DNA from: Jiangella alba
GTDB lineage: Bacteria > Actinomycetota > Actinomycetes > Jiangellales > Jiangellaceae
Reading direction: 5' to 3'
Assembly (NCBI RefSeq): GCF_900106035.1
Contig: NZ_FNUC01000003.1
Coordinates: 3,155,501 to 3,219,500, forward strand
DNA: 64,000 bases
The notes beneath the pieces were generated by a model that saw only the letters and a program-made list of their open reading frames with translations, had not been told where the DNA came from and did not search any database. The position numbers and the translations under genes are program-made. Shown here piece by piece: positions 61,076-64,000 of this stretch (position 1 is the first letter of the stretch; each line of letters opens with the position of its first letter).

Positions 61076-61685
61076 TCAGTCGAGGGCCACGCCGGCCGAC
61101 TCCAGCAGAGGTGTCATCCTGGCGGCCGCTATGGGGGCACCGGCACGCTCCAGCGCCGCGATGGTCGATGCGTCCGTGGCGCCGCGCAGCCGGGCAACGG
61201 CGGTCGCGTGTACGGCAAGCAGCTGGACCGGGTACTCGGCGATCAGAACGCTCAACAGCGCTTCGGGCGTCATCACCTCGAATCCGAGCGGCCCCGCCAC
61301 GTCGTCCGGGAAGTCATTCGTGTTCGCCGTGCACAGGACCGTGGCCTCTGCAGCGACGGCAGCGGCGATCACATGACGGTCGTCCTCGTCAGGCAGCGCC
61401 AGCTCGGACAGTCGCTCGTGATCCCCGGGTGTCGGCTCGACCTCGGCATAGGGGAACGCACGGTTCATCGCAGCCACAAGGCGCACACCGGACTCGATGG
61501 TGAAGCCAGCGACATTCGCCACCAGATGTTCGGTGACCTCGCTCAGGATCTCCCGGCTCCACGCGATGGCGATGATCTCCTCATCAGCGGCGTAGAGCAG
61601 GTAGTCACGCAGGACGCGCGAGGACGTTGGCGTCGACCAGGACGACCCGGACCGTGCCGGGCAGGTCGAGATCCCCTTCGGTCAC
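61076..61685 (-). pseudogene. PIN-domain toxin gene broken by a frameshift
   Basis: The N-terminus starts at GTG 61685 (VTEGDLDLPGTVRVVLVDAN) and carries the first PIN aspartate, but the frame ends at TGA 61607-61605. In the +1 frame the domain continues as RVLRDYLLYAADEEIIAIAW and runs to 61076 with ALPDEDDRHVIAAAV and CTANTNDF. A single inserted or missing base near 61615 explains this. The region GTCCTCGCGCGTCCTGCG is repetitive. An isolated C-terminal ORF can start at GTG 61522. It may be a true inactivation, a sequencing error or, less likely, programmed. Confidence 0.75.
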
Positions 61686-62065
61686 TCCGTGAGGCCCAGC
61701 TCATCCTGAAGATCGGCCAGATCCTCCAGGGCTGCCTGACGCCGGGGACGCTCGGCATCGAGGAACGCCCGGATCGAGGAGACCCGGATGCGGTGGTGGG
61801 CACCAACCTTGCGGAAGTCGAGGACGCCCTGGTCCATCAGCTTGCGGACCTGTGGCCGCGACATCCCCAGCAGTTCGGCTGCCTCGCTCGGCGTGACCTC
61901 AGCATGCCCACGGGTCACGAGAACCTGCTGACCACGAGCACGCGCGTCAACGACGCGCGCCAGCAACTCAGCGGTCTCACGCGAAAGCGACACCTGCACG
62001 TCGTCGCCGCCGGCGTCCAGAGCACGGTGGACCGCCTCGACGTCGCGAGCGAGCATCTCTGTCAT
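61682..62065 (-). CDS. Excisionase-type HTH antitoxin of the PIN module
   Basis: 127 aa. A helical N-terminus is followed by a MerR/excisionase-like DNA-binding unit (VTPSEAAELLGMSRPQVRKL, then GAHHRIRVSSIRAFLD). The C-terminal helix (LEDLADLQDELGLTE) would bind the toxin. It overlaps the broken PIN gene by four bases (GTGA). Upstream, the word GCAGAT occurs twice near the start, a possible operator. With the toxin frameshifted it may persist as an orphan regulator. Confidence 0.85.
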   Translation of the reverse strand: MTEMLARDVEAVHRALDAGGDDVQVSLSRETAELLARVVDARARGQQVLVTRGHAEVTPSEAAELLGMSRPQVRKLMDQGVLDFRKVGAHHRIRVSSIRAFLDAERPRRQAALEDLADLQDELGLTE

Positions 62066-62445: not shown

Positions 62446-62508
62446 TTGTCAACCCCCTGTCCCAGGCCTACGATCGAATTGTCGATCATGTCAACGGGGG
62501 GTTTGATC
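62446..62508 (+). promoter_or_regulatory. Promoter, dyad and ribosome site of the lanthipeptide precursor gene
   Basis: TTGTCA (62446-62451), 17-base spacer, TACGAT (62469-62474). A perfect dyad GATCGA-ATTG-TCGATC (62472-62487) overlaps the predicted start of transcription and may bind a regulator. GGGGGG (62496-62501) is the ribosome site before ATG 62509. Confidence 0.75.
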
Positions 62509-62703
62509 ATGGCAGACAACGACCTCAGCGCTCGCCTGGACAGGCTCGAGCAGTTGCTGGGACTACAGCGCATGAACGTCTCCGCCGACGCCGAGGGCGG
62601 CAGGGGGTTCGCCAACAGCGGTGTCTCCGATCACTGCGGCAACAGCACGTTCAGCAACCACTGCGCCGTCATGCGTGCCGAGCCCGAGGTCGCACCGCAG
62701 TAG
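62509..62703 (+). CDS. Class III-type lanthipeptide precursor (LanA)
   Basis: 64 aa. The leader has the class III-like amphipathic motif LDRLEQLLGLQRM (residues 10-22). The core contains two copies of Ser-x-x-Ser-x-x-Cys: SGVSDHC (37-43) and STFSNHC (46-52), fitting the Ser-(x)2-Ser-(x)2-5-Cys pattern for labionin or (methyl)lanthionine rings. A 12-residue tail without Cys follows. ATG 62509 is preferred because of the G-rich ribosome site; ATG 62488 and TTG 62446 overlap the promoter or dyad. The synthetase gene begins 42 bases downstream. Leader cleavage site and ring type are inferred only. Confidence 0.85.
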   Translation: MADNDLSARLDRLEQLLGLQRMNVSADAEGGRGFANSGVSDHCGNSTFSNHCAVMRAEPEVAPQ

Positions 62704-62745
62704 CCGTAGCGCGCCCGGCATCCACAACAGAACACCGCTCTCGCG

Positions 62746-64000
62746 ATGCGCGCGCCGCAGTTCTTCTGGCACCCGTACTTCTTCGAGCCGCTGGCCACGC
62801 GCCCGCCGACGCAGGAGTACCGCGACCACCTCGCGCAACTGCTCCCGGACACGTGGCTGATCAGCCGCCACGACGTCTGGCTGTACGCCGCGCCTGAGAA
62901 GGCCCCGGACACGACGCAGCGGCAACAGGGTTTCAAGATCCACCTGTCCGCCGTGCCGCAGACCGCCTCGGCCGTCCTCGACGTCGCCGTGCCGATCTGC
63001 GCCGAGCGGCAGGTCGACTTCAAGGTCGCGGGTGATCCCGTGATCGTGCAGATCCTGAACTCCAAGCGGCAGTCCCGCGGCGGATCGGGCAAGTTCATGA
63101 CGATCTACCCGCCGGACGACGACACGTTCCGGGACCTGATCGAGCGGCTGCACCAGGCCACCCGGACGGCGAAGCTGGCCGGACCGCGCATCCTGTCCGA
63201 TCGGCCGTACAAGGGCAGCTCGATCGTCCATTACCGCTATGGCGGGTTCGCCTCGCCCAGGCGGGTCAACCTCGACGGCACCCACACGCCGTGCCTGGTG
63301 TCGCCGAGCGGCGAGTACGAACCGGACGACCGGCGGCCCTACTTCCGGCTGCCCGGCTGGATCGAGGACCCGTTCGGCGGCAGCGGCGAGATCGACGTCG
63401 ACTCCTCGCTCACCCTGAACGGCCGGTACTCCATCCAGTCGGCCGTCAGCTTCTCGAACGCGGGCGGCGTCTACGCCGGCACCGACACGACCACGGGGAC
63501 GCCGGTGATCCTCAAGGAGGCCCGCCCCTGCACACATCAGTGGAGCATCGGCGACACCACCTGGGACGCCGTCGACCTGCTGCGCCGGGAACACGCCGTC
63601 CTGCGGCGGCTCGCCGGCCTGCCATTCGTCCCCGCGGCCGTCGAACTGTTCGAGGACAGCGGGCACACGTTCCTCGCCGAGCAGCGGCTGCCCGGCCAGG
63701 ACCTACGCGGCTACTGGGCACGGAACGAGATCATCCTGGCGCCCTACATCCGCCGGCCGCAGCGCTTGGCCCGTTGGCTGCCGCAGTTCCGGCACGTGGC
63801 GGAACGACTCGTCGCGATGGTGCTCACGGTGCACGAGCGGGGCGTGCTCATCGGCGACCTGTCGCCTGCGAACGTCCTGATCGACGACGCCGGCCGGCGG
63901 CTGGGTCTGATCGACTTCGAGAGCGCGATCACGGCCGACGACGGACCGGAGATGCGCGGGTTCGCGGCAGCCTGGCGCACACCGGGGTTCGCCGCGCCGG
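62746..64000 (+). CDS. Class III/IV lanthipeptide synthetase (LanKC/LanL), cut by the window edge
   Basis: 418 codons are visible and the gene runs past 64000. The phospho-Ser/Thr lyase domain (~1-215) shows GFKIHLSA, RGGSGKFMTIYPP and GPRILSDRPY followed by VHYRYGGF. The kinase domain has VILKEARP (Lys257), the catalytic loop GDLSPANVLI (Asp371, Asn376) and the metal-binding DFE (Asp390). The cyclase domain is outside the window, so LanKC (no zinc ligands) and LanL (zinc ligands) cannot be told apart; the precursor favours class III. ATG 62746 is the only in-frame start after the upstream stop at 62707. Confidence 0.92.
   Translation, partial: MRAPQFFWHPYFFEPLATRPPTQEYRDHLAQLLPDTWLISRHDVWLYAAPEKAPDTTQRQQGFKIHLSAVPQTASAVLDVAVPICAERQVDFKVAGDPVIVQILNSKRQSRGGSGKFMTIYPPDDDTFRDLIERLHQATRTAKLAGPRILSDRPYKGSSIVHYRYGGFASPRRVNLDGTHTPCLVSPSGEYEPDDRRPYFRLPGWIEDPFGGSGEIDVDSSLTLNGRYSIQSAVSFSNAGGVYAGTDTTTGTPVILKEARPCTHQWSIGDTTWDAVDLLRREHAVLRRLAGLPFVPAAVELFEDSGHTFLAEQRLPGQDLRGYWARNEIILAPYIRRPQRLARWLPQFRHVAERLVAMVLTVHERGVLIGDLSPANVLIDDAGRRLGLIDFESAITADDGPEMRGFAAAWRTPGFAAP

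Follow-up and report, generated by a model that had tools for sequence, protein, structure and literature searches.

A probable natural split of a class III-type lanthipeptide synthetase in Jiangella alba and related loci

RamC and LabKC are class III LanKC synthetases. The window analyzed here, a stretch of 64,000 nucleotides from the genome of the soil bacterium Jiangella alba, ends within a synthetase gene that the initial annotation described as "LanKC or LanL", which raises the question of which of the two the enzyme is and of where its cyclase lies.

Precursor and synthetase genes of the cassette

The assignment of the locus to the class III/IV lanthipeptide family is right. Matches to RamC_N, Pkinase, and a LanC-like family were obtained. 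The lyase-kinase matches RamC_N (PF25816, E = 3.9e-56) and Pkinase (PF00069, E = 1.9e-12, 47.6 bits with a cut-off of 31.7), and it also passes APH (32.8 bits with a cut-off of 23.2), over residues 340–394 only. It is the one RamC_N gene found in the J. alba genome. The LanC-like part that had been expected past position 64000 is absent from the synthetase itself, whose frame stops just after the kinase, but the next gene, with a start codon within the ATGA overlap with the lyase-kinase stop, encodes a complete LANC_like protein (PF05147, E = 8.3e-22). On the 833-position LanKC model NF038151, the lyase-kinase covers positions 8–453 with 420 bits and the cyclase covers positions 485–832 with 259 bits, so that only the linker is divided; both halves miss the model's cut-off of 575 bits. 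We read the cassette as three genes (precursor, lyase-kinase, and cyclase) with a synthetase that is probably split naturally into two proteins, a judgment that extends jointly to the two-ring product discussed below.

The lyase and kinase residues had been annotated as intact, and they are. Lys64, His66, Lys93, Lys116, and Arg164, which we take to be the catalytic residues of the lyase, and Lys257, Glu282, Asp371, Asn376, and Asp390, presumably those of the kinase, are invariant in 53 aligned sequences (own included) of about 80. In the cyclase, by contrast with a class IV enzyme, the zinc ligands are absent. The positions concerned are Leu246, Phe290, and Asp291, which correspond in our reading of the alignment to Ser726, Phe770, and Asp771 of ThurKC, the offset of the ThurKC PDB-chain numbering having been worked out by us. 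The cyclase is therefore class III-like and not class IV, and the open choice between LanKC and LanL is decided in favor of a LanKC-like enzyme, the LanL reading falling away.

Class III cyclases are described as lacking zinc ligands (PMC10604976). The two ThurKC residues needed for labionin formation, R610 and D667 (PMC10604976), are not kept and align with Ala127 and Tyr187; according to the same paper they are not conserved in sequence among labionin producers either. The AlphaFold2 model of the cyclase (pLDDT 95.1, pTM 0.93) has ThurKC (8sam, TMq 0.81) as its best PDB match, and the model of the lyase-kinase (pLDDT 92.2, pTM 0.91), in which a helix is predicted at residues 485–500, is closest to CuvL (8cav, TMq 0.75) and then to ThurKC.

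Table 1. Features of the cassette, numbered from the first letter of the window
Feature	Position	Strand	Remarks
Promoter TTGTCA-N17-TACGAT	62446..62474	+	hexamers 62446-62451 and 62469-62474
Lanthipeptide precursor gene, 64 aa	62509..62703	+	ATG 62509, 64 codons, stop TAG 62701-62703
First ring motif (predicted) SGVSDHC, residues 37-43	62617..62637	+	
Second ring motif (predicted) STFSNHC, residues 46-52	62644..62664	+	
Cys-free tail AVMRAEPEVAPQ, residues 53-64 (12 residues)	62665..62700	+	
Lyase-kinase gene, RamC_N + protein kinase, 501 aa	62746..64251 (L003:3746-5251)	+	passes window end at 64000
Separate LanC-like cyclase gene, 390 aa	64248-65420 by window counting (L003:5248-6420)		outside window

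The precursor, annotated as a 64-residue peptide with two SxxSxxC motifs and a 12-residue Cys-free tail, is present as described (Table 1), and the promoter that had been called good holds up as well. The latter is the sole match to its pattern in L003 3100-6700, where shuffled sequences give a mean of 0.1 (sd 0.4, n = 50), and identical hexamers with the 17-base spacing kept precede the precursor of Jiangella endophytica. Among the in-frame ATGs we chose the one at 62509, 8 bases 5′ of which lies a run of six G, as the probable start; the alternative at 62488 has no in-frame counterpart in J. endophytica, where a different in-frame ATG falls within the G run. The leader carries LEQLLGLQ and the predicted core spans about residues 33–64, so that the peptide shows the class III pattern of a hydrophobic leader motif followed by S-x2-S-x2-5-C. 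A search of the precursor families does return the class III lanthipeptide model NF038159, yet at 22.5 bits, under the cut-off of 30. The annotation had treated the motif as distinctive, which is overstated; tandem SxxSxxC is ordinary for class III, known class III peptides commonly carrying two or three S-x2-S-x2-5-C motifs (PMC8960859), and it also occurs beside fused synthetases. The peptide as such appears typical of class III lanthipeptides.

Both motifs are unchanged in J. endophytica, as is the tail, and their counterparts in Nonomuraea cypriaca are SGASDHC and SAYSNHC, with only LEAQK in place of the tail. The combined pattern NSG[VA]SDHCGNS[TA][FY]SNHC is found only in these two Jiangella species and N. 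cypriaca, in all of which His42 and His51 are conserved. Thr47 is replaced by Ala in the complete N. cypriaca precursor. This locus has an apparent second precursor (L045:4691-4894) with the tail GNSTISNHCLEAQK, which is broken by an N run in the record and has Thr at this position.

Conservation and phylogeny of the split loci

J. endophytica KE2-3 (G007, L043) has the same three genes and the same split, here with a GTGA overlap. Its lyase-kinase and cyclase are 77% and 80% identical to those of J. alba, and the comparison of the two species gives dN 0.14 and dS 0.49 for the lyase-kinase and dN 0.12 and dS 0.41 for the cyclase; the resulting dN/dS of about 0.3 indicates that both halves are under purifying selection. 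Core codons 33–64 differ by 10 synonymous and 0 nonsynonymous changes, leaving the 32-residue core identical, a pattern with a chance of about 2e-7, as a rough figure, if changes fell randomly over sites. The leader has 9 synonymous and 3 nonsynonymous changes. Among the 12 Jiangella genomes searched, the split form is found in two (J. alba, G000, and J. endophytica), a fused form in three (G003, G005, and G006, with a fragment in addition in G005), and neither in seven.

In both split Jiangella loci, a secreted protein with what we read as a Tat-like signal is encoded 3′ of the cassette on the opposite strand (L003:6664-8634 (-) and L043:10097-11488 (-)); the J. alba copy has no Pfam match. 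On the other side, divergent from the cassette, lie a gene for an HTH_17 DNA-binding protein (E = 6e-12; 61682-62065 (-)) and then one with a weak, below-cut-off match to a PIN domain (61076-61522 (-)), which by their domain matches look like a toxin-antitoxin or excisionase-type pair.

A contig scan with the lyase-kinase alignment yielded 467 relatives, the best 80 of which were examined. Ten of these 80 are clean splits: J. endophytica, a Caldilineaceae MAG (L044), N. cypriaca (L045), an Anderseniella MAG (L046), Nonomuraea sediminis (L048), two Corallococcus loci (L049 and L050), a Gemmatimonadetes MAG (L051), a Streptosporangium locus (L052), and, outside the clade that holds the other nine, an Acetofilamentum MAG of the Bacteroidota (L054). 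The rest of the 80 are fused, bar L117 and L069, which are broken, and L092 and L118, which are cut by contig ends. RamC_N matches occur in 77 of 393 class-sampled genomes, and the listed frames under 650 aa among them are those of G000, G007, G742, G658, G089, G622, and G005:C35; G742 adds one more clean split, and the matches of G622 and G005:C35 are partial, with frame lengths of 220 and 134 aa. G089 (L041) and G658 (L127) were rejected as extra splits, being frameshifts with breaks inside the kinase, as were L117, with a frameshift inside the cyclase, and L069, with a stop inside the lyase.

With the cassette of J. alba included and L054 left out, 11 split loci thus fall into one clade that spans the Actinomycetota, Chloroflexota, Pseudomonadota, Myxococcota, and Gemmatimonadota. 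The cyclase query (E 1e-30, 396 phylum-sampled genomes) returned the own genome only, from a sample evidently without G007, and the precursor query (E 1e-3, 393 class genomes) returned G000 and G007 only; G742, from a class sample of the same size, has such a precursor and was missed, so the precursor query reaches close kin only. The matches of one homologue survey (190/198) were mostly plain kinases.

All 11 loci are cut at the kinase-cyclase border, and the position of the cyclase gene varies from downstream to upstream of the precursor (N. sediminis) or on the opposite strand (N. cypriaca). Most other members of the clade have Glu or Ser in place of the Asp of GLFDG, a point that counts against the reading preferred here. 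In each of the 11 lyase-kinases, a Trp lies 3–7 residues from the C terminus, which we consider a candidate docking element; in J. alba it is Trp495. The C-terminal Trp is absent in L054 and in L047, the latter a fused locus from a MAG; a Trp lies further on in the sequence in the fused L053, L065, and Streptomyces rows, and the residue is for this reason not claimed to be specific to split enzymes.

A transporter or protease gene was looked for around the split loci, and none is common to at least three of them. In flanks of about 5 kb, shorter at some contig ends and with G742 left out, the only families shared by at least three of 12 split loci among ORFs of at least 120 aa are the lyase-kinase, the cyclase, and their antisense frames. 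The flanks of L045 and L054 end about 0.3 kb and about 3 kb after the lyase-kinase match, and that of L051 starts 2.5 kb before it. A second LanC-like match after a class III synthetase was observed at L037:6916-11592, L051:7020-8933, L062:7606-8913, and L066:7612-8937.

The same clade is recovered from both parts of the synthetase. In trees built from 28 rows, the ten split loci that include J. alba but not L054 group with fused L047 with support of 99/99 for the lyase-kinase and 99/97 for the cyclase, and a tree of 22 rows from the joined lyase-kinase and cyclase with G742 added unites the 11 split loci and L047 with support of 100/100. A quick lyase-kinase tree of 81 rows, from whose rows the smaller trees were picked, contains the clade as well (SH-aLRT 95); L069, L117, and L118 were left out at this stage, and L092 entered without a cyclase. 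A group of all 11 split loci that excludes L047 is rejected by the AU test (p-AU 0.0013; the group was defined after inspection of a tree). The nesting of L047 with the splits probably means either that L047 was re-fused or that the split arose more than once, and with one fused member, the clade does not keep the enzyme strictly split. L054 represents a split of its own outside the clade.

A short ORF that combines a class III-like leader with S..S..C motifs is present at all 11 split loci; 10 of these ORFs carry two motifs, as does that of fused L047, and the L051 ORF carries a single one. When Cys is barred from the interior of the motif, seven loci retain two, three (L046, L049, and L050) retain one, and L051 retains none. 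Some precursor stretches in these counts and in the cut-off scan begin one codon off Met. In that scan, of ten relatives' precursors (nine split loci and fused L064), only that of L064 passes an NCBIfam precursor cut-off. The precursor scan of 43 loci gave no candidate in L047, L054, L055, L061, L067, L075, L081, L083, and L084, and a separate scan gave the L047 precursor and a possible one in L054. Tandem SxxSxxC precursors also lie beside the fused synthetases of Rheinheimera (L063, L064, and L068) and Undibacterium (L071), so that the motif is no hallmark of the split clade.

Experimentally identified class III clusters are exemplified in a 2025 review by Actinobacteria, Firmicutes, and Myxobacteria (PMC12328550). 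Here, fused synthetases of class III accompanied by SxxSxxC or SxxSxxxC precursor candidates were seen in Pseudomonadota and Acidobacteriota at L053, L057, L059, L062–L064, L066, L068, L070–L072, L077, and L082.

Proposed mechanism and alternative explanations

Gene structure, conservation, domain identity, predicted folds, and phylogeny are the observations from which we start, and the explanation that we consider likely is a natural two-protein synthetase of class III type that makes a peptide with two rings, of labionin or lanthionine. From these observations we infer complex formation, the chemistry, the type of ring, export, and leader removal. The lyase-kinase would bind the leader of the precursor, phosphorylate Ser37, Ser40, Ser46, and Ser49 and perhaps Thr47 of the core, and then eliminate phosphate, which would turn Ser into dehydroalanine. 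By analogy with ThurKC, the separate zinc-free cyclase would dock transiently on the lyase-kinase, and it would add Cys43 and Cys52 each within its own SxxSxxC motif to give two labionins or two lanthionines. The lyase-kinase of ThurKC excised at the same domain border is inactive alone; with the cyclase added in trans, a shortened precursor was modified and no stable complex was seen, and most ThurKC cyclase mutants lose dehydration as well (PMC10604976). If the analogy holds, a transient complex is probably needed here, and the cyclase may be needed for dehydration too.

Broken LanKC genes do exist, as the frameshifts in L041, L117, and L127 and the stop in the lyase of L069 illustrate. For the split described here, a LanKC gene that decayed or was mis-sequenced, with a frameshift or nonsense mutation, is nevertheless so improbable an explanation as to be negligible, given that two Jiangella species share the split with both halves under purifying selection, that 11 loci of one clade are each cut at the kinase-cyclase border, and that two Nonomuraea species have the cyclase upstream or on the opposite strand. 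Alternatively, translation might join the two frames into an ordinary fused LanKC, by read-through or by a programmed frameshift at the ATGA. The Jiangella frames would be united by a shift of −1 at the overlap, and in L044 and L046 a single TAG separates two frames that share one register. However, the nine junctions that were inspected have frame offsets of 0, 1, or 2 and stops of TGA or TAG (TAA in L054), and in both Jiangella species the overlap contains a start codon for the cyclase. In L045 and L048 the rearranged genes make joining impossible, so frameshifting or read-through is not the general explanation, and we hold it to be very improbable for this cassette.

A further alternative concerns the role of the LanC-like protein, which might activate or scaffold the lyase-kinase and not close the rings; these would then close without an enzyme, or the product would stay dehydrated or take other nucleophiles, such as the His beside each Cys. 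The absent zinc ligands, the loss of the ThurKC labionin residues, and the dehydration defect of most ThurKC cyclase mutants (PMC10604976) are consistent with such a role, and the conserved His42 and His51 of both Jiangella species and N. cypriaca, together with the existence of LanKC_Hbt enzymes and of histidinobutyrine in noursin (PMC10206099), with a His nucleophile. Yet zinc ligands are lacking in class III cyclases in general (PMC10604976), and Phe290 and Asp291 match Phe770 and Asp771 of ThurKC. Against a His cross-link stand the other eight split loci of the clade, which have no His inside the motifs, and the change of Thr47 to Ala in the complete N. cypriaca precursor, though the interrupted second copy has Thr. 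We consider the activator role unlikely and retain the ring-closing two-protein synthetase.

Within that reading, a wider proposal is possible but tentative: two-protein class III synthetases may form an ancient lineage that extends over at least five phyla and whose stand-alone zinc-free cyclase serves as an obligate trans-activator, docking on the C-terminal helix of the lyase-kinase, where the Trp lies near the end in 11 of 11 split clade members. If so, having the cyclase on its own would allow the cell to regulate it, or to use it again, independently of dehydration.

Relation to known lanthipeptide synthetases

Reviews present the synthetase of class III as a single protein, three-domain or multifunctional (PMC12328550, PMC10676316), and in the article texts of the open-access literature searched we found no description of a natural split LanKC. 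Stand-alone kinases and lyases have been claimed in lanthipeptide-like clusters (PMC4159009), and dehydration and cyclization domains are said to be sometimes on separate proteins, in a statement that does not name class III (PMC11251773). The class III sorting of a large survey demanded LanC and kinase on one protein (PMC7268733), a rule that would leave split loci unclassified. There is accordingly a blind spot, as each half of the synthetase lies below the LanKC cut-off and the precursor below that of its family. A natural, conserved split also offers separable enzymes for the questions posed by ThurKC, namely what makes the lyase-kinase dependent on the cyclase and by what means a LanC protein without zinc forms labionin.

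The cassette agrees with class III LanKC enzymes such as ThurKC and CuvL in its RamC_N lyase, Ser/Thr kinase, zinc-free LanC-like domain, and predicted folds, and with class III precursors in a leader followed by SxxSx2-5C. It differs from them in that separate genes encode the lyase-kinase and the cyclase as two proteins, with ORFs of 501 and 390 aa in place of three domains on one polypeptide, and in that the precursor and both halves fall under the NCBIfam cut-offs. Class IV (LanL) was rejected because the cyclase lacks the Cys-Cys-His zinc ligands. Class V (LanK, LanY, and LanX) likewise uses separate proteins, but with a HopA1-like lyase and an Aph-like kinase (PMC10604976); here the lyase is RamC_N fused to a kinase that passes both Pkinase and APH, alongside a PF05147 cyclase, and class V was rejected. 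The streptococcal class VI LanKCb also departs from the three-domain plan but is one protein whose lyase and cyclase domains are both truncated (PMC10676316), whereas the domains here are complete, two proteins covering nearly the whole of NF038151, and class VI was rejected. As for the Dhb-His feature of LanKC_Hbt enzymes of the noursin type, Thr47 and His51 are present, with Thr47 being Ala in the complete N. cypriaca precursor. The split LanB of pinensin-type class I systems is another fused lanthipeptide enzyme found as two polypeptides (PMC7268733), although it is a different enzyme with a different chemistry, glutamylation. The engineered split ThurKC (Met1–Gln486 and Thr487–Ile872; PMC10604976) is divided at the same domain border and regains activity in trans in vitro; that split was made in the laboratory, whereas the one in Jiangella is natural and conserved.
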